Assembly: GCF_003151135.1 (NCBI RefSeq)
Contig: NZ_QEQK01000012.1
Span: 62,001 to 126,000, forward strand
Reading direction: 5' to 3'
Source: Abyssibacter profundi
Lineage (GTDB): Bacteria; Pseudomonadota; Gammaproteobacteria; Nevskiales; OUC007
Length of the DNA: 64,000 bases
Position numbers and translations under genes: made by a program. A model generated the notes under the pieces. That model ran no database searches. It was not told the DNA's origin and was given only the letters and a program-made list of their open reading frames with translations. Positions 5,186 to 26,845 of the stretch are shown here, piece after piece (the stretch's first letter is position 1; each line of letters begins with the position of its first letter).

Positions 5186-7545
5186 GCCTTCTTCTTGGCC
5201 TTGCTCGTGGACTTGGTCGTCGACTTGCTGGCCGCCTTGGTCGTTGTCTTGCGGCCGCCGCGCTTTTTACGTTCAGGGGCAGCGGCAATCAGCTCCTGAC
5301 ACTGTTCCAGCGTCAGTGACTTAGGATCGGTGTCCTTGGGAATCTTCGCGTTCTTCTTGCCATCGGTGATGTACGGCCCGTAGCGGCCGTTGAGCACCTT
5401 GATGCCCTCGTCTTCCCAGACGTGAATCTCGCGCTCGGCGTCGAGCTTCTTCTTGGCCGCCACCAGCTCCAGGCACCGTTCACGTGACACGGTGTAAGGG
5501 TCGTCGTCCTTGCCCAGCGAGGCGAATTTCTTGCCGTAGCGCACGTAGGGCCCGAAGCGACCGACGGCAACCTGCATCTCCTCGCCTTCTGGTGTCTCGC
5601 CCATGTCGCGGGGCAGCTGAAACAGCGCCAGCGCCTCGTCCAGCGTGATCTTGTCCAGGCGCTGCCCGGGCCGCAGGCTGGCGAACTTGGGCTTGTCTTC
5701 ATCGTCCTTGGAGCCGATCTGCGCAAACGGGCCGTAACGGCCGATGCGTACGATGACCGGCTTGCCCGACTTGGGATCGGTGCCCAGTTCACGGGCCTGT
5801 GCCACCTCGGCACGGGAGATGTCCTGCTTGGATTCCACCGTCTCCGAGAAAGGCTCCCAGAAGCCTTCCAGCAACGGCTTCCAGTCCTTTTCCCCACGGG
5901 AGACCGCATCGAGCTCATCTTCGAGCCGCGCCGTGAAGTCGTAGTCCACGTACTGGGTGAAGTGCTCGGTGAGAAAACGGGTGACGATGCGACCGATATC
6001 GGTGGGGTAGAAGCGCTTGCTCTCCAGCTCGACATATTCACGCGACAGCAGCGTCGAAATGATGCTGGCGTAGGTCGAGGGCCGGCCGATGTCGTACTCC
6101 TCCAGGGTCTTGACCAGGCTGGCTTCCGTATAGCGGGGCGGCGGCTCGGTGAAATGCTGGTCGGTCTTGACCTCCAGCAGCTCCAGCACATCACCCTGCT
6201 CGACGGGCGGCAAGGTCTTGTCGTCGTCGTCGGCCTTGCTGTCGTCGCGACCTTCCTGGTAGACGGCGATGAAGCCGGGTTCGACCAACGTCGATCCCGT
6301 AGCCCGGAAGCTGTGACCGTCGCCGGCGGTCAGCGTCAGCGACACGGTGTCATACAACGCCGGCTGCATCTGGCTGGCCATCGCACGCTTCCAGATCAGC
6401 TCGTAGAGCTTGGCCTGATCGCTATTCAGGTACTTGCGCATCTCGGACGGATGCCGCGTGGCAGACGTCGGGCGCACGGCCTCGTGGGCCTCCTGCGCAT
6501 TCTTCGACTTGGTCTTGAACTGCCGGGGTTTGTCGGGCAATGCCTTGTTGCCATACCGATCGGCGATGACCTCACGCATTTCAGCCAACGCGTCGTTGGC
6601 CAGCGATACCGAGTCGGTTCGCATGTAGGTAATCAGGCCGATGGACGAGCCATCGATTTCGATGCCCTCATACAGCTGCTGGGCCGTCCGCATGGTGCGG
6701 GTGGTCGTGAATCCCAGCTTGCGCGACGCCTCCTGCTGCAAGGTCGAGGTGGTAAACGGCGGTGCCGGGTTGCGGCGGCGTTGTTTCTTCTCGACTGTCT
6801 CGGCCGTGAGCTGGCCGCCGGCGGCCGCGGTGAGCGCGTCGCGCGCGGCGTGGGCATCGACTTCATTGGTAAACGTGAACTGCTCGACCTTGTCGCCGGC
6901 GTAGGTCCACAGCTTGGACCCGAAGGCCTGGCCATCCTTCTGGACCTGGGCCTCCATGGACCAGTATTCGCGCGGCACGAACTGGTCGATCTCGTCCTCG
7001 CGCTCGACGATCAACCGCAGTGCAGGACTTTGCACACGGCCGGCCGACAGGCCGCGCTGGACCTTCCGCCACAGTAGCGGCGACAGGTTGAAGCCGACCA
7101 GATAATCCAGCGCCCGTCGTGCCTGCTGGGCGTCGACCAGATCGTCAGAAACGGTGCGCGGGTGGCTTAGCGCATCCTGAATCGCGCGCTCGGTGATCTC
7201 GTGGAACACAACGCGCTGGACGGTCTTGTCGTCCAGCAGCCCCTTCTCCTTGAGGATCTCCAGCAGATGCCAGGCAATGGCCTCGCCTTCGCGATCGGGG
7301 TCAGTGGCCAGCAACAAGGCATCGGCCTTCTTCAGCGCGTCGACGATGGTCTTGACGTGCTTTTCGTTGCGGTCGATGACCTGATAGCGCATCGCAAAGT
7401 CGGCGCTAGGATCAACGGCACCCTCCTTGGGTACCAGATCACGCACATGGCCGTAGGAAGCCAACACCCGGAAGTCCTTACCGAGGTACTTCTCGATGGT
7501 CTTAGCCTTGGCAGGCGATTCGACGATGACCAGATTCTGCGCCAT
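5182..7545 (-). CDS. topA: DNA topoisomerase I (type IA)
   Basis: 787 residues from the ATG at 7545 (MAQNLVIVESPAKAKTIEKY). The alternative upstream in-frame starts would add up to 24 residues with no family similarity. It relaxes negatively supercoiled DNA. The Toprim domain occupies the first ~140 residues (VESPAKAKTI, ATDPDREGEAIAWH), and the catalytic tyrosine is Tyr307 in LITYMRTDS. The C-terminus has three topoisomerase C-terminal repeats (GRYGPFAQIG, GRFGPYVRYG, GRYGPYITDG) in place of the E. coli C4 zinc ribbons, and ends in a Lys/Ser/Thr-rich tail (KKRGGRKTTTKAASKSTTKS and on). The start lacks a good Shine-Dalgarno. It heads the topA-tsaC-hemF set. Confidence 0.97.
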   Translation of the reverse strand: MAQNLVIVESPAKAKTIEKYLGKDFRVLASYGHVRDLVPKEGAVDPSADFAMRYQVIDRNEKHVKTIVDALKKADALLLATDPDREGEAIAWHLLEILKEKGLLDDKTVQRVVFHEITERAIQDALSHPRTVSDDLVDAQQARRALDYLVGFNLSPLLWRKVQRGLSAGRVQSPALRLIVEREDEIDQFVPREYWSMEAQVQKDGQAFGSKLWTYAGDKVEQFTFTNEVDAHAARDALTAAAGGQLTAETVEKKQRRRNPAPPFTTSTLQQEASRKLGFTTTRTMRTAQQLYEGIEIDGSSIGLITYMRTDSVSLANDALAEMREVIADRYGNKALPDKPRQFKTKSKNAQEAHEAVRPTSATRHPSEMRKYLNSDQAKLYELIWKRAMASQMQPALYDTVSLTLTAGDGHSFRATGSTLVEPGFIAVYQEGRDDSKADDDDKTLPPVEQGDVLELLEVKTDQHFTEPPPRYTEASLVKTLEEYDIGRPSTYASIISTLLSREYVELESKRFYPTDIGRIVTRFLTEHFTQYVDYDFTARLEDELDAVSRGEKDWKPLLEGFWEPFSETVESKQDISRAEVAQARELGTDPKSGKPVIVRIGRYGPFAQIGSKDDEDKPKFASLRPGQRLDKITLDEALALFQLPRDMGETPEGEEMQVAVGRFGPYVRYGKKFASLGKDDDPYTVSRERCLELVAAKKKLDAEREIHVWEDEGIKVLNGRYGPYITDGKKNAKIPKDTDPKSLTLEQCQELIAAAPERKKRGGRKTTTKAASKSTTKSTSKAKKKA

Positions 7546-7656
7546 GGGGGGCGGAAACTCGTTGCTGAATAGGGATTCGGGGGGCGCGAGCATGGCCGCG
7601 CCTCGAAAGAGTTGCAAGTTGCAGCCGCTGTCGGCATCCCGTGTTCAACGGATGCG

Positions 7657-7676
7657 GCCGGGCGGCAAAGCCCGGC
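7657..7676. other. Inverted repeat in the smg-topA gap
   Basis: GCCGGGC (7657-7663) and GCCCGGC (7670-7676) form a 7-bp GC hairpin with a 6-nt loop in the 251-bp gap between smg and topA. On the minus strand it lies after smg and before topA, so it could attenuate read-through. No T-tract follows. Nothing else was recognised between 7546 and 7796. Confidence 0.35.
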
Positions 7677-7796
7677 ATGCCGGTCAGAGACGGTGTTGGG
7701 TTATCGGACGGTCGTCGCGATGACTTGAGCGTCCCCGATGGCCGGATGTCCACCGAAGAGCGCCGCCGTCCGATCCACCCCAGCCAAGCGCAGGGG

Positions 7797-8270
7797 CTAG
7801 TGCACGGCCTCGGCATAGCTCTGGAACACGAGGTCTTCCATGCGCGCGTAGGCTTCCTCGTGCTCGGGCTGATTGAACAGCGCCAGCAACACCACCCAGC
7901 GAACATGGTCTTCCTCGACCGCATCATCATCCAGCGCCATGAGGCGCTCGATCACCAGTTCGCGACCATCGGGGGTCAGGATGCCGAGATTCTCCAGATG
8001 CATCAGCAGACCGCGGCAGCCGGTGGACAGCCGTGCCATCTCCTCGGCTGCGTACACACGGTAGGCGGTGGTCGGCATGACCGTGTCACCCGAGCGCTTG
8101 CGCGCCTCCAGCCCTTCCAGCCATTCGAAGGCGTGCGTGACCGCCTCGGCAGGAAACCCGGCCGCTTCCAATTCTTCACGGAGTGGGCAGCCCTCGTAGC
8201 GGGCTTCGATCTCTTCTTCGAGATAGTTCTCAAACAGGTACAGCAGGACGTCGAGCACGTTTTCCTTCAT
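7797..8270 (-). CDS. smg: Smg family protein (DUF494)
   Basis: 157-residue protein of the Smg/DUF494 family (MKENVLDVLLYLFENYLEEE...). Members sit beside dprA (smf) in many gammaproteobacteria, as here. Acidic, all-helical and cytoplasmic, with no known catalytic motif; the biochemical role of Smg is not established. The 171-bp gap to dprA (8271-8441) holds no recognisable gene or signal. Assignment rests on the typical N-terminus, the length and the neighbour. Confidence 0.9.
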   Translation of the reverse strand: MKENVLDVLLYLFENYLEEEIEARYEGCPLREELEAAGFPAEAVTHAFEWLEGLEARKRSGDTVMPTTAYRVYAAEEMARLSTGCRGLLMHLENLGILTPDGRELVIERLMALDDDAVEEDHVRWVVLLALFNQPEHEEAYARMEDLVFQSYAEAVH

Positions 8271-8441
8271 GTCGCTTGCCCCTGGTTTGGGCCTGTCGGT
8301 GCAGGCAAGTTCCCGATCTTCAGATGTCTTGCAAGACCTGGACCGACTCGGTCAACGGCCGGCAGAGCGCCGCCGGTGCGTCAGTCGATCCGTTGGCAAC
8401 ACCCACCCTTGCCGTGGTCTCACAGCGCGGTGCTTCACGAT

Positions 8442-9554
8442 TCAATGTGCTGATGACAATCGCATGAACAGTCCGCCGGAGCTGGGTGCGATCACACCGT
8501 CCAACTCCAGGACCAGCAGCATGGAAGAAACCGCTTCGACGGTCAATCCGGTGCGATCCACCAGCTGATCCAGACTGGCGGGCGCATCACCCAGCGCGGC
8601 GAGTAGCTGTTGATAATCGGCATCATAGCCATCGGGGGAGGGGCTGGGCTCAGGCGCTGGAGTCGCCGCACCGGGGGTCCAGTTCAGCTGCCCGGACAAG
8701 GGTGCCAACACATCTTCTGCGGTTTCCACCAGGGTGGCCCCTTCGCGTATCAGGCGATGACAGCCACGCGCCAGCACGTTGTGGATGGACCCGGGAATCG
8801 CGAACACCTCCCGGTTCTGCTCCATAGCGTCGCGCGCCGTGATCAGCGATCCGGACTCGGTGGCCGCCTCGACGACCAGCACCCCCAGCGACAGGCCACT
8901 GATGATGCGATTGCGTCGCGGGAAATGCTCCGCCTTGGGTGGCGTGCCCGGTGGCCACTCGGACAGCAACACGCCCTCTTCAGCAATGGCATGCGCCAGG
9001 TCCCGGTGCGCGGCGGGATACACCCGGTCCAGCCCCGTGCCGCAAACCGCCACCGTGAGCCCGCCGGCCGCCAACGCGCCACGGTGCGCCTGCCCATCAA
9101 CGCCCAAGGCCAATCCGCTGGTCACGGTCAGACCGCGTGCGGCCAGGGATCGACCGAATCCGAACGCATGCTCCGCCCCCTGCGGCGTGGGGCTGCGACT
9201 GCCCACGATGGCAATCTGCGGCAGTGACAGCACCTCGGGATCCCCGAGTGCGAACAGCACGGGGGGCGGGTTGGGAATCTCGCGCAGACGCGGCGGGTAG
9301 CGCGGGTCCTCGCGGGTGATCAAATGGCGGTTGGCCGCGGCATCCAGCCACTCGATATCGGCGGTGATGGCATCGTGTGGCTGGTCCAGCGCCGTGGCAA
9401 CCGACCGCGGCAGCCCCACCTGCTCACGATCGGCCACCGAAGCCTCTAGCGCGCGCTGCGGCGTGCCGAAAGCCTCCAGCAGGCGGGACATGCGAACTGG
9501 CCCCAACCCCGGGGTGCGCAAGAGCTGCAGCCAGGCGCGCCTCGGGTCCGTCAA
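8442..9554 (-). CDS. dprA: DNA-processing protein DprA/Smf
   Basis: 370 residues. DprA loads RecA on incoming single-stranded DNA during natural transformation. An N-terminal SAM-like helical region is followed by a Rossmann-like core with IAIVGSRSPTPQGAEHAFGF, TVTSGLALGVDGQAHRGAL, GTGLDRVYPAAH, LLSEWPPGTPP, FPRRNRIISGLSLGVLVVEA and SGSLITARDAMEQNREVFAIPG, all hallmark DprA blocks. A short winged-helix domain fills the last ~60 residues (LDQLVDRTGLTVEAVSSML-ELDGVI). It lies 8 bp downstream of tsaP and is probably cotranscribed. DprA next to a type IV pilus accessory protein is compatible with natural competence. Confidence 0.97.
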   Translation of the reverse strand: MTDPRRAWLQLLRTPGLGPVRMSRLLEAFGTPQRALEASVADREQVGLPRSVATALDQPHDAITADIEWLDAAANRHLITREDPRYPPRLREIPNPPPVLFALGDPEVLSLPQIAIVGSRSPTPQGAEHAFGFGRSLAARGLTVTSGLALGVDGQAHRGALAAGGLTVAVCGTGLDRVYPAAHRDLAHAIAEEGVLLSEWPPGTPPKAEHFPRRNRIISGLSLGVLVVEAATESGSLITARDAMEQNREVFAIPGSIHNVLARGCHRLIREGATLVETAEDVLAPLSGQLNWTPGAATPAPEPSPSPDGYDADYQQLLAALGDAPASLDQLVDRTGLTVEAVSSMLLVLELDGVIAPSSGGLFMRLSSAH

Positions 9555-9562
9555 GGCTGCGC

Positions 9563-10681
9563 CTAGCTGTTCGGTTGCGGGTTCTTGACCTTGTCCAACA
9601 CGTGCACCGGCCGGAAGGCTTCCATGACCAACCCGTAGGAGAAGCGATCGTAGGTCTTGAAGACCAGCAGATTGCCCGCCAGCGTGTCGGGCAGTTGCAC
9701 CTTGCCGTAGCCACTGCGATAGGGGTCCGACACCTTGCGTCCTGACTGATAAATGCTCAGAACGTGACCCGGGGTCAGTCCGTGCATCTGCCCACGGTTC
9801 AACGCGACGATGGCGTACTGGCCGATCTGGGACACGCCCTCATAGACATTGATGATGCGCCCTTCGATTTCGTTGCCCGGCGCATGCGGGAAGAAATTGG
9901 CGCTGAAGACCTCAGCCTCGGAGGGCAGCAGGTAGTCGCCAATCAGAATCTCTCGCACGCTGTCCAACACGCGGGTCACCGCGGGCGTGCCGTACTGCAC
10001 GACCTCGACCTCGCCGATGGGCAAGGCTTCGACCCCGAGGACCCGATTGTCGTCAGGGTCCCGGTAGGTCTCGCCACGACGCACGATCTGGTACGTGGTG
10101 ATGTCTTCCTCGGGCAGGCGCATGACGTAGATCGACATGCCCTCGGCCCCGATCAAATGCTCCCCGACGAATTCCAGCACGTAGGGCGCTTCATCCAGCG
10201 CATCGGCTTCGATGAGACGCGGCCCACGCAAGAAATTGCGAATGGCGTCGATGGGAATCGTCGGAATCGCTGCATCCAGCGGCAGATTGCGCACGCGCGG
10301 CGACAGGCGTTCGACACCCAGCCCGCCGCGCCGGATCTGCGGGCGACCATTGACCCAGACCAGCAGCAACTCGTCACCCGGATAGATCAGGTGCGGATTG
10401 GAAACCTGCGGATTGACGTACCAGACCTCGGGCCACAGCCAGGGGTCGCGCAGAAAATAGGTCGCAATGTCCCAGAGCGTGTCGCCTTTCTTGACGACAT
10501 ACTTCAGCGGCGCATCGTCTGCGACTTCCACCAACGGCGGCGGCGGTGTCTGCGAACGCACCACAGGCGGTGGCGACGCGGGCTCGGCAACCGGACTCGG
10601 TGTCGGCGCAGGATCGCTGGCACAGCCAATGAGCAAGGCGCCCCCGGCAAGCGAACACAGCAACGGTCTATACTTCGTCAT
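9563..10681 (-). CDS. tsaP: LysM-domain lipoprotein, TsaP-like (type IV pilus secretin-associated)
   Basis: 372 residues from the ATG at 10681; the open frame extends 31 codons upstream without a signal peptide. A lipoprotein signal ends LLIGC-ASD. A Pro-rich linker is followed by a LysM peptidoglycan-binding domain at about residues 60-115 (KYVVKKGDTLWDIATYFLRD, then YPGDELLLV), then a larger C-terminal domain. Size, LysM position and location directly between dprA and def match the Pseudomonas PA0020 locus, whose product TsaP anchors the PilQ secretin to peptidoglycan. The locus match is the main argument for TsaP over a generic LysM protein. It is divergent from def across a 113-bp gap that must hold both promoters. 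Confidence 0.82.
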   Translation of the reverse strand: MTKYRPLLCSLAGGALLIGCASDPAPTPSPVAEPASPPPVVRSQTPPPPLVEVADDAPLKYVVKKGDTLWDIATYFLRDPWLWPEVWYVNPQVSNPHLIYPGDELLLVWVNGRPQIRRGGLGVERLSPRVRNLPLDAAIPTIPIDAIRNFLRGPRLIEADALDEAPYVLEFVGEHLIGAEGMSIYVMRLPEEDITTYQIVRRGETYRDPDDNRVLGVEALPIGEVEVVQYGTPAVTRVLDSVREILIGDYLLPSEAEVFSANFFPHAPGNEIEGRIINVYEGVSQIGQYAIVALNRGQMHGLTPGHVLSIYQSGRKVSDPYRSGYGKVQLPDTLAGNLLVFKTYDRFSYGLVMEAFRPVHVLDKVKNPQPNS

Positions 10682-18618: not shown

Positions 18619-21048
18619 CTAGAACTGCAGGTTCAAGGCCCCGAACAACTGACGACCGCTGGCCAGCTGGGCCTGATACGTCCCGGGAAAGAACGGCGTG
18701 TCGGTCACCTGATTCAGCACGCGCTCATCGGTCAGGTTGGTTCCGCCCAATGTGAGCGACCAGCGCTCGCTCTGCGAACCCAGGGTGAATCGACCCGCAT
18801 AGCGCGTGGTCGCGGGCACGTAGGTATTCGGGTCCAGGTCGGTATCGACAAACTGGTCGCCCTGATACAGCAGGTCCACGGCGGCGGTTAGCACCAAGCC
18901 CCCCAATGGGAAGCTCAGCGTCGGCGTCAGCGTCGCGGTGGCTCGTGGCGCGAAGGCGATGCGCTGGTCGGTCAGGTCCTGTTCCGCATCGATACCTTGC
19001 TGGATGGGCGCGGGTGCGTCGCGGTATGCCTCATACCGGGCGTCCAGCCAGCCGTATGCGCCGGCGATTTGCAGCGGCGCCCAAGGCGTCAGCCAAACGA
19101 AGTCGGCCTCCAGGCCCCGCGAGTAGGCCGTGGCAGCATTACTGACATCAAAGAACGTCCCGTTGAAAGCCAGCACCTGCAGATTGTCGAACCGCGTCTG
19201 GTAGAGCGTGATGTTCAGCGACAGCGTGCGCTGGAAGAACCGCCCCTTGAAACCCAGCTCGACGGTTTCCGCCTCCTCGGCCGCGTACTCCAGATCCTCA
19301 CCGTTGAAGGACAATGCATTGAATCCCCCACTCTTAAACCCCTGGGCCCAGGAGGCGTAGTAGTTCACCGAATGATCGCTGAAGTACTGGAGCGCCAGCT
19401 TCGGGGAGAGATCCGATTCACTGCGTCGTAGGTTGTCGCGATCGTAGTCGTTGGCCTCGAGCAGCAAACCCATAATGCAGGGCACGACCGCAGCCGGTGT
19501 GCGCTCACAAAAGGCCGTGCCGGCGGTGTCCACGCGCTTGTCCTCACGGTTGTACCGCAGTCCCGGCGTGAGGGCCCAGCGATCGGAGAGGTACCAGGTC
19601 ATCTGACCAAACAGTGCGGCCGAGCGGATGTCCTGGTTGTAGTCGAACTGGTAGTAGTCGTTCTCCAGCAGGGGGACCAGCGCCGGCCCAAGCCCCTGCA
19701 GCAACACCAAGGGACTGCTGCTCGACCCGTCGCCGGTGATCAGCTGAAAGGCATCATCCGTAAAGGCGTAGGTGCTGAGATCCTCACCGGCCAACACGCG
19801 GGCCAGCAGGGTGTAACTAGAATCGAACCAGAAAGCGCCGGCGACAAACTCCACCCGCTCCCCCCAGCCGAACGGGGCTGCCCCGCGGCCGGTTAAGCGC
19901 AACTCGGCGGACAGCTGATCATGGTCTTCGTGGTTATCGAGCCGGCTGATGTTGGCCGGCGAGATATCCAGCTCGTTGAGCTGGTCGATGTAGAACCGCG
20001 ATCCGCCCAGCACCAGCGTGGTCTCCAGGTCCTCCAGATCGCCCATCGGCCCCGGCGCCCAACTGGTCCGCCAGCTCAGCGTGCGTGAGCCCTTTTCGAT
20101 CCACCCAGGTGTCTCGGCGGAGTTGATGAAGTTCTTGGGGTCATCCTCGATATCGGGATCGAAGTCCTGCAGATACGCCCGCGTATCTGCATCCAGCCCG
20201 AACAGCTGGAAGGGCCAGAAAGCCGCTTCGGTATCGGAGATGACGGCGGTGAGCTCGCTATCGACCGTGTAGCTCGGTACGAGATTGATCTTGAGCCGGG
20301 CCGCCTGCTGCTCCAGCCGCTCTTCGTACCGCCGCAGAAAGGCATTGAACAGCTCGCCGTCCTGAGCCCGGTCGAGCACGGCCAGGCGCCCACCCAGCCA
20401 CTCGTTGGCCATGCCCCCCAGCCCTGCCTCGACCCGGTGCTCGCCATGTTCGCCGTAGAAGATCCGCCCATCGGCACCCGCGCCGGATACCGCATCCTTG
20501 GTCATCACATTGAAGACACCGGCCACCGTGTTCTTACCGAACAGCGTGCCCTGCGGACCACGCAGCACCTCAACGCTGTCGACATCAAACATGGCCTCCG
20601 TGAAATACCCGGGGCGGCCGAACACGATCTCGTCCTGCACAAAACCCACCGAGCTTTCGAAGCTGGGGTTAAAGGCATTGGTGCCAAAGCCGCGGATGAA
20701 CACCTGCGGCGACCCGAGATCATCGGCATCGACACGCACATTGGGCACGTAGAGCGATACGTCAGCCAGGTCCGCCGAACCCGTGGACTGGATGAACCCG
20801 CCGTCGATGGCGGTGACCGAAACCGGCACCTCCTGCAGGGTTTGCTCGGTTTTCTGCGCGGTCACGACCATTTCTTCCAGCTGCCGCGGCGCCTCGTCGT
20901 CAGGCGGCGGCAGAGGCTGGACTGGAATCAACTCCAGCGACGCATCCGCTGCGGTCGGTTCAGCAGGCGACTGCGCATCGCGGCTGTCCTGTGCGCGCAA
21001 TGTAGTCGACATGGCCAGCAGGGCCACGCCCAGGCAGAGGTGTTTCAT
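18619..21048 (-). CDS. TonB-dependent outer-membrane receptor
   Basis: 809 residues. Signal peptide MKHLCLGVALLAMSTTLRAQ-DS, then a Pro/Glu-rich stretch and a TonB-box-like EEMVVTAQK. The plug domain has VPVSVTAIDGGFIQ, VFIRGFGTNAFNP and VEVLRGPQGTLFGKNTVAGV, and a 22-strand-type barrel ends in LNLQF with the terminal aromatic residue for BAM insertion. It energises uptake of a ligand that the sequence does not reveal; the family style (LRGPQGTLFGKN-GVFN, long loops) resembles receptors annotated for iron complexes, vitamins or carbohydrates. The gene is monocistronic and divergent from the cytochrome c operon across 204 bp in which I recognised no operator. Confidence 0.95.
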   Translation of the reverse strand: MKHLCLGVALLAMSTTLRAQDSRDAQSPAEPTAADASLELIPVQPLPPPDDEAPRQLEEMVVTAQKTEQTLQEVPVSVTAIDGGFIQSTGSADLADVSLYVPNVRVDADDLGSPQVFIRGFGTNAFNPSFESSVGFVQDEIVFGRPGYFTEAMFDVDSVEVLRGPQGTLFGKNTVAGVFNVMTKDAVSGAGADGRIFYGEHGEHRVEAGLGGMANEWLGGRLAVLDRAQDGELFNAFLRRYEERLEQQAARLKINLVPSYTVDSELTAVISDTEAAFWPFQLFGLDADTRAYLQDFDPDIEDDPKNFINSAETPGWIEKGSRTLSWRTSWAPGPMGDLEDLETTLVLGGSRFYIDQLNELDISPANISRLDNHEDHDQLSAELRLTGRGAAPFGWGERVEFVAGAFWFDSSYTLLARVLAGEDLSTYAFTDDAFQLITGDGSSSSPLVLLQGLGPALVPLLENDYYQFDYNQDIRSAALFGQMTWYLSDRWALTPGLRYNREDKRVDTAGTAFCERTPAAVVPCIMGLLLEANDYDRDNLRRSESDLSPKLALQYFSDHSVNYYASWAQGFKSGGFNALSFNGEDLEYAAEEAETVELGFKGRFFQRTLSLNITLYQTRFDNLQVLAFNGTFFDVSNAATAYSRGLEADFVWLTPWAPLQIAGAYGWLDARYEAYRDAPAPIQQGIDAEQDLTDQRIAFAPRATATLTPTLSFPLGGLVLTAAVDLLYQGDQFVDTDLDPNTYVPATTRYAGRFTLGSQSERWSLTLGGTNLTDERVLNQVTDTPFFPGTYQAQLASGRQLFGALNLQF

Positions 21049-21252: not shown

Positions 21253-21621
21253 ATGCACAACTTGAACCAGTTCATCGCCCCGGCCCTGGCGGCCCTTTGT
21301 CTTGCCGGCTGCGGGGCCGGAAGCTCCAGCCTGACCCCGGCACAATCCCGCGCGCTCACACCCGCCGACCCGGATTTGGCCGCGCTGTATACGGCGAGCT
21401 GCAAGGCCTGCCATACCGTGCCCGCGAGCCGGGCGCCGATGACAGGCAGCGCCCGCGCGTGGGGCGTCCGCATGAACAAGGGCATGGACCGCCTGCTGGA
21501 GAACACCATCAGCGGTTACAAGGGCATGCCACCCATGGGGCTGTGCTCGGATTGCAGTGAATCCGACCTGCGGGACCTGATCAGCTTCATGGCCACACCG
21601 CCTCAGCCTGCCGACTCATGA
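21253..21621 (+). CDS. Cytochrome c5-like lipoprotein
   Basis: 122 residues. The lipoprotein signal ends CLAGC-GAG, so it is probably membrane-tethered in the periplasm. One CxxCH haem site (CKACH) lies near residue 55. The later segment GMPPMGLCSDCSESDLRDLI resembles the methionine-ligand/disulfide region of cytochrome c5. Its stop overlaps the start of the FAD oxidase gene (ATGA), so it is the likely electron acceptor of that enzyme. Confidence 0.9.
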   Translation: MHNLNQFIAPALAALCLAGCGAGSSSLTPAQSRALTPADPDLAALYTASCKACHTVPASRAPMTGSARAWGVRMNKGMDRLLENTISGYKGMPPMGLCSDCSESDLRDLISFMATPPQPADS

Positions 21622-23027
21622 AGCGCCGCGATTTGCTCACGGGATCAGCCGGGCTTGTACTGACGATGCCACTGGCCGGCTGCGACGACTACGGCGCAGC
21701 GAACATGCCGCAGCCACCTGCAGCCGTCGTCGGAGCTGACGGCCAGCGCCGCCTGCCCTGGCAAAACTGGTCGGGCTACCAGTCCAGCCTACCGGAGCGA
21801 CGCTTGGCACCGGCCAGCGAAGATGAACTCGCCCGGCTGCTGGCCGACAGTCGCGGCACCATTCGGCCGGTCGGCTCCGGCCATTCGTTCACGCCGCTGG
21901 TGCCAACGGACGACACCCTCATCTCGCTCCGCCACTTCAGCGGCCTGTTGCAGCACGACCCTCAGGCGCTCACGGCGACCGTGGGCGGCGGCTCGCGCCT
22001 GGGCAGCCTGGGCGAGCCACTACACGCGGCAGGTCAGGCGCTGATCAACATGCCCGACATCGACGCGCAAACGCTGGCCGGCTCGATGGCCACCGCCACG
22101 CATGGCACCGGCGCGCAGCTGGGCGCGCTGCACACTGCGGCGATTGCCCTGCGCCTGGTCACGCCGACGGGCGAGGCTCTGGACTGTTCTCCCAGCCTCC
22201 GGCCCGAATTGTTCGCCGCCGCTCAGGTGTCGCTGGGCGCGCTGGGGGTGATCACCCAGGTCACGCTGCAAAATGTGCCGACCACACGGATGAAGCGCCG
22301 GGTCTGGGTCGAGCCTTTCGATGAGCTGGTCGAGCGATTCGACAGCCTGGCGGCCGCACACCACAGCTTTGAGATGTACTGCATTCCGCATTGCGATCAC
22401 GCCGTGGGCATCACCATCGACCCGACCGACGAGCCGCTGCAGCCTCGCGGCCCGGAGCAGGACAACGACGCGGTCATGGATCTCAAGCGGCTGCGGGATC
22501 TGCTCGCCTGGTTTCCCGCCGCCCGGCGCTGGCTGATCAACATGGCGCTGCAGGATTACCAACCGGAAGTCGCCGTGGATGTCTGGCACCGAATCTTCCC
22601 GTCCAGCCGTGCGGTCCGTTTCAATGAAATGGAATACCACCTGCCGCGAGAGACCTTGCTCCCCACCCTGCGCGAGGTTCGGCAGCGACTGGAGCAGCGC
22701 CACCCCGGTGTGTTCTTCCCGATGGAAATTCGCGTCGTACGAGGCGATGACGCCTGGCTCAGTCCGTTTCAGGGACATGACACCTCGGGATCGATTGCCG
22801 TACACCGCTACTACGAAGAGGATCCGCTGCCGCTGTTTCGTGACGTGGAACCGCTTTACCAACCCATGGGCGGACGCCCGCACTGGGGCAAGATGCACAG
22901 CCTGACGCCGCAAACGCTGGCCGACCGTTACCCACGCTTCAACGATTTCGTCGCTCTGCAATCCCGGCTCGATCCGCAGGGCCGTCTACTCAACCCCTAC
23001 CTCAGGACCTTGCTCGGCCATGGCTGA
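21618..23027 (+). CDS. Exported FAD-linked sugar-lactone-oxidase-like oxidoreductase
   Basis: 469 residues. N-terminus MKRRDLLTG-LTMPLAGC combines a twin-arginine-like motif with a lipobox, suggesting export of a folded flavoprotein as a lipoprotein. The FAD-binding PCMH domain has RPVGSGHSFTPLV (the His of GSGHS is the usual covalent-FAD site in this family) and ATATHGTGAQLGAL. The C-terminal D-arabinono-1,4-lactone oxidase domain includes MEYHLPRE and the closing GGRPHWGK block, typical of gulonolactone/alditol oxidases. Likely oxidises a polyol or lactone and hands electrons to the preceding cytochrome; the actual substrate is unknown. Overlaps both neighbours (4 and 8 bp). Confidence 0.9.
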   Translation: MKRRDLLTGSAGLVLTMPLAGCDDYGAANMPQPPAAVVGADGQRRLPWQNWSGYQSSLPERRLAPASEDELARLLADSRGTIRPVGSGHSFTPLVPTDDTLISLRHFSGLLQHDPQALTATVGGGSRLGSLGEPLHAAGQALINMPDIDAQTLAGSMATATHGTGAQLGALHTAAIALRLVTPTGEALDCSPSLRPELFAAAQVSLGALGVITQVTLQNVPTTRMKRRVWVEPFDELVERFDSLAAAHHSFEMYCIPHCDHAVGITIDPTDEPLQPRGPEQDNDAVMDLKRLRDLLAWFPAARRWLINMALQDYQPEVAVDVWHRIFPSSRAVRFNEMEYHLPRETLLPTLREVRQRLEQRHPGVFFPMEIRVVRGDDAWLSPFQGHDTSGSIAVHRYYEEDPLPLFRDVEPLYQPMGGRPHWGKMHSLTPQTLADRYPRFNDFVALQSRLDPQGRLLNPYLRTLLGHG

Positions 23028-24330
23028 CTCCACCATCAACTGGCGTCGTCGGGCCCTGATTGCCGGGGGCTTGGCAGCACCCATCGCGCTCGCGGCGACC
23101 AGCAAACCGCGGGACCGCGGCCAGGGTGGTCACGATGCCTACTTTGCAGATATCCAGAACGCCCTGAAACGTGCCGGGCTGATGCACCCCACGCTGGTCA
23201 TCGACCGGGCGCGGCTGGATGCCAATATCGCGCGGCTGCAGACCCATCTGCCGCCCGAGCTGGCCTACCGGATCGTGGCCAAGTCGCTGCCCAGCGTCGA
23301 TCTGATCCGATACATTCGCCAGGCCACCGGCACGCACCGGCTGATGGTCTTTCACCAGCCCCATCTCCACACGCTATCGCGCGCACTGCCCGACAGCCAC
23401 TTGCTGCTTGGCAAGCCCATGCCGGTGGGCGCTGCACACCGGTATTTCGAGCAGTGGCAACCGGGCGCGTTTCAGCCCGATAACCAGATCGAATGGCTGG
23501 TGGATACGCAGCAGCGCATCCAAGACTACGCCGAGCTGGTCACTGGCCTGGGCCATCAGGCAGCCGGGCCCTTGCGCCTGAATCTCGAACTCGATGTCGG
23601 CCTGCACCGGGGGGGCTTTCGCAGCACACGGGCAGTGGCCGAAGCCCTCCACGCCATCCAACAGAATCCAGCCCTGCAATTTGCCGGTTTCATGGGCTAC
23701 GAGGCGCATGCCTCCAAGATCCCTGACCTGCTAGGCGGGCCCGCGGCTGCGCTAGAACAGGCCATGGCGTTCTACGCGGACTGCGTCGACGTGGCCCGGC
23801 AGGTCCTCGGCGAGCGGTTCGACCCCGCAGCACTCACGCTCAACGCAGGAGGCAGCAGCACCTACCAGCTGTACGACAGCACCGCCCCCTGCAACGAGCT
23901 CGCCATGGGGTCGGGGCTCCTGAAGCCCTCGGACTTCGACACCGCCACGCTAGACGACCACGTACCGGCCGCCTTTATTGCCACGCCGGTGCTCAAACGT
24001 CTGGAAGGCACCCGGTTGCCCAGCCTGGAGTCACTCTCCGGCCTTTTCGAGGCCTGGGACCCCAACACCGCCCAGACCTTTTTCATCTATGGCGGCCACT
24101 GGCTGGCTGACACCGTGTCGCCGCCCGGCCTGCAACGCAACGCCATCTGGGGGCACTCGACCAACCAGGACATGCTCAACGGTTCGGACGCCGTCGAACT
24201 TGAGGTGGGCGATCACCTGTTCCTGCGACCGCATCAAAGCGAAGCCGTGCTGCTGCAGTTTGGTGATCTGGCGGTGTACGACCAGGGCGAGATCGTCGCC
24301 ACCTGGCCCGTGTTCAGCCAGGGTCGCTAA
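23020..24330 (+). CDS. Exported alanine-racemase-fold PLP enzyme (DSD1/D-threonine-aldolase-like)
   Basis: 436 residues. The N-terminus NWRRRALIAGGLAAPIALAA looks like a Tat signal. The body is a fold-type III PLP enzyme: HPTLVIDRARLDANIARL, AYRIVAKSLPS (the Lys of VAKS is the expected PLP Schiff-base residue), LELDVGLHRGGF, GFMGYEAHASK and NAGGSSTYQL, then a D-serine-dehydratase-like C-terminal domain (GHSTNQDMLNG, VGDHLFLRPHQSEAVLLQFG). Homologues act on D-threonine or D-serine. An exported version coupled to a flavoprotein and a cytochrome is unusual; the reaction cannot be deduced. Its 3' end overlaps the convergent cheB-cheR gene by 17 bp. Confidence 0.87.
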   Translation: MADSTINWRRRALIAGGLAAPIALAATSKPRDRGQGGHDAYFADIQNALKRAGLMHPTLVIDRARLDANIARLQTHLPPELAYRIVAKSLPSVDLIRYIRQATGTHRLMVFHQPHLHTLSRALPDSHLLLGKPMPVGAAHRYFEQWQPGAFQPDNQIEWLVDTQQRIQDYAELVTGLGHQAAGPLRLNLELDVGLHRGGFRSTRAVAEALHAIQQNPALQFAGFMGYEAHASKIPDLLGGPAAALEQAMAFYADCVDVARQVLGERFDPAALTLNAGGSSTYQLYDSTAPCNELAMGSGLLKPSDFDTATLDDHVPAAFIATPVLKRLEGTRLPSLESLSGLFEAWDPNTAQTFFIYGGHWLADTVSPPGLQRNAIWGHSTNQDMLNGSDAVELEVGDHLFLRPHQSEAVLLQFGDLAVYDQGEIVATWPVFSQGR

Positions 24331-26845
24331 TCGATGCCCTGGCCCAACGAATACGCAACACGACTGCGCGTATGTCCGGACTGCTCCAGTCGATTGCACG
24401 CAGATCGCACTCAGCCTGCTCATCCTCAAGACGCAGGTGCAACGGCCCGTCCTCTTCGCGTTCCAGGCGCTTACGAACAGCACTGAGCATTGGCATGAAT
24501 CCCGATCGCCACGGTAGCGACCAGAATCGATCCGAGGATTGCCGCACCGCCCCTTCAGCATAAAGCCGCTCCTCCGGCCCCATGAGCAGCCGGACACGCG
24601 CCGCCGCATCCACCACGATAATGACATCGTCCACGTAGCTGCCGACGGCATCCCAGCTGGCCGTGAGCACGTCCATCTCCCCACCGCGCTGGCGCAACTC
24701 TTCGTTAACGGTGATCAGCTCTTCGTTGGACGACTGCAACTCCTCATTGGAGGTCAGCAACTGCTCATTCATCGACTGCAATTCCTCATTGGAGGACTGC
24801 AGCTCCTCGCTTTGCGATTGGAGTTCTTCGTTGGAGGTTTCCAGCTCCTCGGCCATGGACTGCATGTCCTGGCGCAGAATCTCCACGCGGCTCTCCAGCG
24901 CGCGCACGTAATCGCTGTCCATCGAATCGGGCAATGACTCCTGGACGCGCCGCTCGGCTTCGGCGCTGCGCATCTCGCGGAGCTCGAACATCAGCAACAG
25001 CGAGCGCTCGAACTCGCCGTCCAACGGAATGGCGTGGGGCGTCACGCTGCGCCACCCATCAGCCAGCTGGCAATTGACGCGGGAGCCGGTGACCGGCTTG
25101 CGTTCGCGGCGCGCCCGATAAAGCACACCGCGCAGCTCCAGGTCCAGGCCATTGGCCAGCACGTCGTGAATCCGCATGATCGCCGGGCCGGTCGGCGCGC
25201 GAATCAACGCCCGCGCCTCTGCAGAGATGAACTTGACGATGTCGTGCTCATCGACAACCACCCATCTCGGGGTGGCGTAATTGGCCAGTGCGATCTGGGC
25301 AGCGGTCTGCAGCGACTCGGGTGCCAAGGCCATGCCGGCACGCCGGGCGGGTGTCTGAGCCGCTCGAAACGGCGCATCAATCTGCGACTTGAAGCGTGAC
25401 GGGAAGCGTTCGACCGTCTGGTCTCTGCGATATATGCGGTGTGTCTCGGATATCGCAACAAATCGACCTTCGGCCGTCGAAGTCGACTCCGTGGAGCCGA
25501 GCACGAGCATCCCGCGGGGCTTAAGCGCGTAGTGCATCAGTTCAAGAATGGCGCGCTGGTAATCGTTCTTGAGGTAAATCAAGAAGTTGCGACAGCTGAC
25601 AAAATCCAACTTGGAAAACGGTGGATCGCTGATCAGATTATGTACGGAGAAGACCGTGATCTGCCTGACCCGACTGCGCACCCGGTAGCCATCGCCGGAC
25701 TGGGCGAGAAACCGATCCCGATAGCCGGCCGGCAAGTTGGCGAGGGAATCACTGGTGTAGATACCGGTACGCGCAATCTCGACGGCATGTTCTGCCAGGT
25801 CGGTCGCGAAGATCGTGATGCTGGGCGGGCTGTCCATGCTCTGCGTCAGGTCCAGCAGGATCATGGCCAGGGTGTAGGCTTCCTCACCCGTCGCGCAGGC
25901 CGGCACCCAGGCCCTGAACGGCTGGCCTGTCGGATGTGCAGCCAGCTGTTTCTTCAGCTCCTCCCGAACGGCCAGCCAGACCTCCTTGTCACGAAAAAAC
26001 GCCGTGACCGAGATCAGGATGCTATTGGCCAGCGCACGCGCCTCGTCCGGGTCCTGTTGCAAACGCTCGATGTAGGGCGCCAGATCCTGATCCGCGTTCA
26101 GCGAGCAGCGCCGCGCAATACGCCGATAAAGCGTACTGGGCTTGGTGTAACTGAAATCCACACCCCGAACCGCCTTCAAGCAGTCGATGATCTGCCTGAG
26201 TTGGCGCTCCCGCTGCGAGCCGGCTGGAAGCTGCGGTTCGATCGGCGAGCTCACCACCGACGTGATCACCTCGGCGAGTTTGGCGGCATCGGCGACCAAG
26301 TCCACGCAATCGGTGCCGACGGCGGCGAGCGGCATACCATCGTAAGTCGCTGTTTCCGGGTCCTGCACAATCGTCACGCCGCCGGCCAGCTTCAGTGCAC
26401 GGACTCCAGCCGCGCCATCCGAACCTGTGCCGGATAGCACCACGCCAATGGCGTACTCGGCGTGGGACGCCGCCAGCGAACGGAACAGCAGGTCCACGGA
26501 GGGTTTGGGGTATGGCCCCTTGGCCGCGGGTGAGGTCACGAACGCGCCGTCGACAATCTCCACGTTCCGATTCGGCGGCACCACATACACCCAGCCCGGC
26601 TGCAGGACATCGCCATTGCGGACGGTGTCGACCTGGAGTTGCACGTCGTGCTCCAGAATGTTGGCCAGTCTGGACTCGTGGTGGGGCGACAGATGCAGGG
26701 CCACAACCACCGCTGCCGGAAACGAGGCATCCAGCCCGGCCACAATCTGGGTGATCGGCTCCAAACCACCTGCAGAGGCCCCGATGGCCACAACGGGGAC
26801 CTTGGTGTCAGCTCCGGTCTTCGCCGGCTTCTTCGACTCTGGCAT
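24314..26845 (-). CDS. CheB-CheR fusion protein with coiled coil and PAS-like end
   Basis: 843 residues. CheB methylesterase domain at about 15-200: Ser in IGASAGG, His in ALHLSPHH, Asp in LSGTGSDGAAG. CheR methyltransferase at about 215-480: RRIARRC in CheR-N, WVPACATGEEAYTLAMI as SAM site, FATDL, FVSCRNFLIYL. A long Glu/Leu heptad coil follows (EELQSSNEELQSMNEQLLTS, about residues 640-725), then a degenerate PAS-like stretch (VIIVVDAAARVRLLMGPEE). No receiver, kinase or GGDEF domain. Such fusions modify methyl-accepting or phosphorelay partners, but no chemotaxis genes are nearby. The start has no clear Shine-Dalgarno. Confidence 0.92.
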   Translation of the reverse strand: MPESKKPAKTGADTKVPVVAIGASAGGLEPITQIVAGLDASFPAAVVVALHLSPHHESRLANILEHDVQLQVDTVRNGDVLQPGWVYVVPPNRNVEIVDGAFVTSPAAKGPYPKPSVDLLFRSLAASHAEYAIGVVLSGTGSDGAAGVRALKLAGGVTIVQDPETATYDGMPLAAVGTDCVDLVADAAKLAEVITSVVSSPIEPQLPAGSQRERQLRQIIDCLKAVRGVDFSYTKPSTLYRRIARRCSLNADQDLAPYIERLQQDPDEARALANSILISVTAFFRDKEVWLAVREELKKQLAAHPTGQPFRAWVPACATGEEAYTLAMILLDLTQSMDSPPSITIFATDLAEHAVEIARTGIYTSDSLANLPAGYRDRFLAQSGDGYRVRSRVRQITVFSVHNLISDPPFSKLDFVSCRNFLIYLKNDYQRAILELMHYALKPRGMLVLGSTESTSTAEGRFVAISETHRIYRRDQTVERFPSRFKSQIDAPFRAAQTPARRAGMALAPESLQTAAQIALANYATPRWVVVDEHDIVKFISAEARALIRAPTGPAIMRIHDVLANGLDLELRGVLYRARRERKPVTGSRVNCQLADGWRSVTPHAIPLDGEFERSLLLMFELREMRSAEAERRVQESLPDSMDSDYVRALESRVEILRQDMQSMAEELETSNEELQSQSEELQSSNEELQSMNEQLLTSNEELQSSNEELITVNEELRQRGGEMDVLTASWDAVGSYVDDVIIVVDAAARVRLLMGPEERLYAEGAVRQSSDRFWSLPWRSGFMPMLSAVRKRLEREEDGPLHLRLEDEQAECDLRAIDWSSPDIRAVVLRIRWARASISDPG

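Follow-up and report, generated by a model that had tools for sequence, protein, structure and literature searches.

The 64,000-nucleotide stretch analyzed here (the window; Abyssibacter profundi, NCBI RefSeq assembly GCF_003151135.1, contig NZ_QEQK01000012.1, positions 62,001 to 126,000 of the forward strand) carries three overlapping genes on one strand, encoding a c-type cytochrome, a flavoprotein and a pyridoxal 5'-phosphate (PLP) enzyme. This trio is almost certainly an sphBCD-type operon, a member of the family known from sphingosine degradation in Pseudomonas aeruginosa, and it probably acts on a sphingoid base, one of the long-chain 2-amino-1,3-diols. As the mechanism of the operon we favor, with moderate confidence, periplasmic oxidation of sphingoid bases at C1. 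The open reading frames were found exactly where an initial annotation of this DNA had placed a three-gene operon, with the sphB and sphC homologues overlapping by 4 bp (ATGA) and the sphC and sphD homologues by 8 bp:

21253..21621, + strand: sphB homologue, predicted c5-like cytochrome c lipoprotein of 122 aa (lipobox LAGC, heme motif CKACH at residues 50-54; family search)
21618..23027, + strand: sphC homologue, covalent flavin adenine dinucleotide (FAD) oxidoreductase of 469 aa (TIGR01679; predicted twin-arginine translocation (Tat)-type RR signal and lipobox)
21672..21683, + strand: predicted lipobox LAGC of SphC (Cys22), the Cys being found in most members of the clade of the window protein, with an AxA-type end instead in the Pseudomonas clade
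23020..24330, + strand: sphD homologue, fold-III PLP enzyme of 436 aa (PF01168; predicted Tat-type RR signal or anchor)

Pairwise identity to the P. aeruginosa proteins was 53% for SphB (over 95 aa), 45% for SphC and 47% for SphD. The P. aeruginosa SphB and SphD queries had their best matches in the Abyssibacter genome in the window copies, and SphC-type and SphD-type genes were present once each in that genome. The window operon resembles P. aeruginosa sphBCD (PA5328-PA5326, SphR regulon) in gene content, gene order (cytochrome c, TIGR01679 flavoprotein, SphD-type PLP gene), single strand, protein families and the Tat-type signal of SphC, which is predicted in the window protein and its homologues. 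The cytochrome matched PF13442 and has two further cysteines beyond the CXXCH motif (Cys98 and Cys101), as in cytochrome c5; SphC matched TIGR01679 with 504 bits against a cutoff of 292, as well as PF04030 and PF01565; and SphD contains an Ala_racemase_N PLP domain. Family and fold matches bore out the initial annotation, pointing to a cytochrome c, a sugar-lactone/alditol-oxidase-type flavoprotein and a PLP enzyme of the DSD1/D-threonine-aldolase fold. In a P. aeruginosa record labeled as a plasmid, a trio of this kind that corresponds to PA5328-PA5326 is located beside a 'transporter' gene and sphR. This record (L054, NZ_CP070468.1, 'plasmid p1B17416') also holds the core chromosomal genes spoT, rpoZ, gmk, pyrE and coaBC and is probably a chromosomal fragment labeled as a plasmid.

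The two operons also differ. The window genes overlap, whereas those of P. aeruginosa are separated by gaps as annotated; window SphC is a predicted Tat lipoprotein, whereas P. aeruginosa SphC is a soluble Tat substrate; and, unlike in P. aeruginosa, no sphA or sphR is adjacent, a divergent TonB receptor gene being present instead. Genome searches for linked SphR, TetR or SphA partners returned distant paralogues only. In the SphC tree the window protein grouped apart from P. aeruginosa SphC, in another supported clade within the family.

Sphingosine induces sphBCD in P. aeruginosa via SphR, and sphA and the neutral ceramidase gene cerN are induced along with it (PMC3900636; PMC5150637). Sphingosine depletion, like growth with sphingosine, depends on both sphB and sphC (PMC11893366), and sphBC have a role in growth with sphinganine and phytosphingosine (PMC3900636, PMC11893366 and PMC6085387, cited jointly). 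The operon is therefore already known, and the 'undescribed' route of the initial annotation is the same trio as P. aeruginosa sphBCD, a part of the SphR regulon on which sphingosine depletion depends (PMC3900636, PMC11893366). Oxidation at C1 followed by aldol cleavage had already been proposed in 2014, and this idea is not original to the present analysis.

All three window proteins are predicted to be exported. The cytochrome has a lipobox (LAGC, Cys20), SphC has an RR motif followed by a hydrophobic stretch and then LAGC with Cys22, and SphD has an RR motif and a hydrophobic stretch; almost every intact close homologue of SphC and of SphD keeps the RR-then-hydrophobic arrangement. The export signals proposed earlier for all three proteins can thus be read in the sequence and recur in homologues. 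A Tat survey (PMC6085387) demonstrated P. aeruginosa SphC to be a Tat substrate exported to the periplasm and makes no mention of SphD. A promoter and terminator scan gave no element above chance.

The AlphaFold model of SphC (predicted local distance difference test score, pLDDT, 89.7) had L-galactono-lactone dehydrogenase and alditol oxidase as its nearest folds, and the nearest characterized relatives were alditol oxidases and aldonolactone oxidoreductases. We compared 33 SphC proteins with the published alditol-oxidase pocket (PMC10771423), giving the following positions in the window protein:

21882..21884, + strand: His89, aligned with the FAD-linking His of alditol oxidases; invariant, 33/33
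22056..22058, + strand: Asp147, at the alditol-oxidase Ser substrate contact (Ser103 of AldOAb); invariant, 33/33
22626..22628, + strand: Glu337, at the alditol-oxidase Gln substrate contact (Gln295 of AldOAb); invariant, 33/33
22725..22733, + strand: Glu370-x-Arg372, alditol-oxidase active-site pair; invariant
22803..22805, + strand: His396, alditol-oxidase active-site His; invariant
22890..22892, + strand: Lys425, alditol-oxidase catalytic Lys; invariant

The complete alditol-oxidase catalytic set, His(FAD)/Glu/Arg/His/Lys, was present in all 33 proteins. SphC has its fold, covalent-FAD His and Glu/Arg/His/Lys residues in common with the alditol oxidase AldO (2VFR, 8OT8) at approximately 30% identity. 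The Ser and Gln that contact the polyol in alditol oxidases were, in contrast, absent from SphC and replaced by Asp147 and Glu337, and SphC further differs from AldO in its predicted export and its pairing with a cytochrome c. The two carboxylates would suit the protonated 2-amino group of an amino-alcohol substrate. L-galactono-1,4-lactone dehydrogenase, the top Foldseek match, has the same VAO-type fold and passes its electrons to cytochrome c (PMC11099136), whereas its substrate pocket differs from that of SphC. The oxidation of an amino-polyol with electrons passing to cytochrome c, as envisaged in the initial annotation, is retained as likely chemistry, with the probable substrate narrowed to a sphingoid base.

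The gatekeeper residue near the flavin, a position defined in PMC11099136, is Pro in window SphC; loci with sphB have Pro, Ala or Ser here. All seven SphC proteins with a Gly gatekeeper lacked an adjacent sphB, and Gly was found in 0 of 27 sphB-bearing loci (Fisher p = 5e-5), although only two to four independent pairs were available, for which a sign test was not significant, and AldO is an oxidase yet has Ala at this position. The pattern is suggestive of SphB as the electron acceptor of SphC. Three loci (L049, L051, L052) encode an SphC with no export signal and a Gly gatekeeper, with no adjacent sphB and with an SphD-type gene alongside; one of them, L051, adjoins a ceramidase gene. These likely represent a cytoplasmic variant.

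Alditol oxidases abstract hydride at C1, and a second oxidation to the acid is possible (PMC10771423). In the pathway we propose, a ceramidase would free sphingoid bases from ceramide and SphC would take a hydride from C1 of the 2-amino-1,3-diol in the periplasm, probably in two successive steps from alcohol via aldehyde to acid, with electrons passing from SphC to SphB and on to the respiratory chain. At C2 of (2S,3R)-sphingosine the Cahn-Ingold-Prelog priorities are N > C3 > C1 > H, and with a carboxylate at C1 they are N > C1 > C3 > H. Because the priorities at C2 swap, C1 oxidation of (2S,3R)-sphingosine would, by our own reasoning, give a 2R (D) product with the D-allo-threonine arrangement, and the product of SphC would be (2R,3R)-2-amino-3-hydroxy-alk-4-enoic acid, a D-configured β-hydroxy-amino acid. 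SphD would then convert this acid, the favored reaction being a retro-aldol cleavage to glycine and a long-chain aldehyde ((E)-2-hexadecenal from sphingosine). We put the aldol step forward tentatively, as the favorite among the possible reactions and not as a secure assignment.

A D-amino acid as the product of SphC is supported by the PLP enzymes found at one and the same operon position: their two folds are unrelated, yet each comes from a D-amino-acid family. This is the main point absent from the literature found. In one locus (L065 of genome G006, 7723-10509), the place of sphD after sphB and sphC is taken by a fold-II PLP gene of the D-cysteine-desulfhydrase/D-cysteate sulfo-lyase family, which overlaps its predecessor by 4 bp, and in three others (L025, L030, L032) a gene of the same fold-II family comes after sphD. 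The fold-II enzyme of L065 has no export signal, and the second step would thus be cytoplasmic in G006.

The trio noted in the window was found to be conserved across genomes. Among 41 complete loci with a close SphD, SphC was immediately upstream of SphD in 34 and the whole trio was present in 26. In a sample of 229 genomes spread evenly over the class, SphD was detected in seven, SphC in six and both in six (Fisher p = 4e-11), and this co-occurrence is more than linkage because the two genes are present but unlinked in two genomes (G006, G151). The SphC and SphD distance matrices were also correlated (Mantel r = 0.88, 0 of 5000), after exclusion of one SphD row (L036) that was misframed in the SphD tree. 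Two contigs labeled Verrucomicrobia (L021) and Pedobacter (L030) carry a gammaproteobacterial-type sphD, together with sphBC in L021; both contigs are probably mis-binned.

The neighboring genes point to sphingolipid breakdown. A neutral ceramidase gene (PF04734) was adjacent to, or no more than 2 kb from, sphC/sphD-type genes in four loci (L019, L040, L045, L051), the PLP gene of L051 being a distant relative of SphD. In L019 a ceramidase gene and a PhoD-type phosphodiesterase gene come after sphBCD, and the Abyssibacter genome has ceramidase and PhoD-type genes side by side on contig C20 (L062, G000:C20:45000-62000, 5422-9671). An AraC regulator gene was found in six loci, an aldehyde dehydrogenase gene is located next to the operon in Pseudomonas loci, and a wax-ester synthase gene follows sphD in three loci (L027, L039, L048); the aldehyde dehydrogenase and wax-ester synthase would both suit a fatty aldehyde or compounds derived from it. 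One relative has a glycoside hydrolase family 1 gene straight after sphD (L071, 9877-11283), which could act on glycosylated sphingolipids. In the window itself, a large gene for a CheB-CheR fusion (24314-26845, - strand) is convergent with the operon, its end overlapping that of sphD by 17 bp.

A number of points weigh against C1 oxidation of sphingoid bases as the mechanism of the operon. In P. aeruginosa, sphD was dispensable under the conditions in which sphB and sphC were required, and attempts to identify the metabolite failed; little or no sphingosine phenotype is seen in P. fluorescens WCS365 and C. crescentus, which have sphBC (PMC11893366). No biochemistry was found in the literature for any SphC or SphD. 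The window neighborhood has no SphR-like gene, and the best AraC match genome-wide is just 31% identical. The co-occurrence of ceramidase across genomes was significant overall (p = 3e-5) and not once one family lacking both was removed (p = 0.29); since this result was not robust to dropping a single family, physical linkage of ceramidase was used as support instead. The remaining points concern the catalytic residues of SphD and the possibility of a different amino-alcohol as the substrate of window SphC, and each of these bears on an alternative explanation.

The AlphaFold model of SphD (pLDDT 92.2) had β-hydroxyaspartate aldolase and D-threonine aldolases as its nearest folds. Two sites of the window protein were located:

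23281..23283, + strand: Lys88, the expected PLP lysine (alignment, model)
24232..24243, + strand: HQSE, residues 405-408 (family consensus TQSE), at the metal-binding H-x-D position of D-threonine aldolases (alignment)

SphD has the fold-III scaffold and PLP lysine in common with D-threonine aldolase and the β-hydroxyaspartate aldolase BhcC (4V15, 6QKB), its best sequence and fold matches, and differs from them in its predicted export, in lacking the conserved H-x-D ligands and base His, and in extra conserved SNQ and QSE segments. The metal ligands are His347 and Asp349 in AxDTA, and D-threonine aldolases, the closest characterized enzymes to SphD, are D-specific at Cα and loosely selective at Cβ (PMC4401734). 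In place of H-x-D (or H-x-C), the SphD family has T/H/Q/R-x-S/T/V, and the base His193, at the PLP-stacking Tyr+6 position, is not conserved. Because neither the metal ligands nor the proposed base is conserved, the label 'D-threonine aldolase' appears doubtful; of the D-threonine-aldolase-like enzyme named in the initial annotation, the fold and the PLP lysine hold and the catalytic groups do not.

The loss of these groups from an otherwise preserved fold would fit an SphD that acts on the D-β-hydroxy-amino acid by dehydration-deamination, decarboxylation or epimerization and not by aldol cleavage, with operon and sphingoid substrate unchanged. The eliminase-family enzyme in the SphD position of L065 also favors this explanation. 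We nevertheless regard it as unlikely: the closest sequence and structure matches of SphD are aldolases, and the D-serine dehydratase with this fold likewise relies on a metal site, built from His and Cys (PMC4401734), that is missing from SphD.

The separate, well-supported clades formed by window-type SphC and SphD in their respective trees suggest that a shift in substrate range is possible, and a different amino-alcohol is thus a possible substrate of window SphC. The clade has features of its own: in most of its SphC proteins the RR motif is followed by a lipobox, and its operons are linked to a receptor gene, located in the window as follows:

18619..21048, - strand: TonB-dependent receptor, divergent, linked to sphB in the window clade

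The same receptor cluster adjoins sphB in the Abyssibacter, Oceanococcus and Sinimarinibacterium loci. A TonB-dependent receptor gene is divergently upstream or nearby in the window and in six further loci (L014, L015, L016, L017, L035, L053), in four of which (L016, L017, L035, L053) a TetR gene lies between the receptor and the operon, and a related receptor is encoded close to the SphC gene of L068. Import of the lipid is a possible function of the receptor, which may be a partner of the operon. The clade-specific predicted Tat lipoprotein, receptor and, in some members, TetR gene, and the presence of both SphC types in some genomes (G006: L065, L066), would all fit a window clade that uses another amino-polyol or long-chain amino-alcohol taken up via the receptor, with sphingosine as substrate in the Pseudomonas clade only. 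This alternative is likewise improbable, as the invariant active-site residues, including Asp147 and Glu337, are identical in both clades and the Abyssibacter genome has a ceramidase.

Finally, the family names (ALO, DSD1) and folds would suit a sugar-lactone or polyol oxidase acting with a true periplasmic D-threonine/D-serine aldolase on free D-amino acids, which is very improbable given the sphingosine induction of the P. aeruginosa operon and sphingosine depletion by sphBC (PMC3900636, PMC11893366), the linkage to ceramidase, the absence of the D-threonine-aldolase catalytic residues from SphD and the acids in place of the neutral alditol-oxidase substrate contacts in SphC. Both identities were also rejected individually: for SphC, sugar-lactone oxidase is a family name only, and the pocket residues and genetics favor an amino-alcohol, while a true D-threonine aldolase is rejected for SphD on its missing catalytic residues.

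C1 oxidation of a sphingoid base followed by conversion of a D-amino acid would amount to a wholly periplasmic, phosphorylation-free breakdown, in which a relative of the alditol oxidases adapted to amino-alcohols yields a D-β-hydroxy-amino acid for an exported PLP enzyme lacking the aldolase metal site or, in some species, for a fold-II D-amino-acid eliminase. Taken as a whole, this scheme is plausible, although we stop short of calling it probable. The comparison yields precise predictions as to the carbon oxidized, the stereoisomer formed, the amine-binding residues and the reason sphD is replaceable. Sphingosine belongs to the antimicrobial lipids of epithelia. The sphBCD route extends beyond the Pseudomonas setting to marine bacteria and, if the scheme is true, it would be distinct from that of sphingosine-1-phosphate lyase and would give this branch of D-threonine-aldolase-like enzymes a physiological role.

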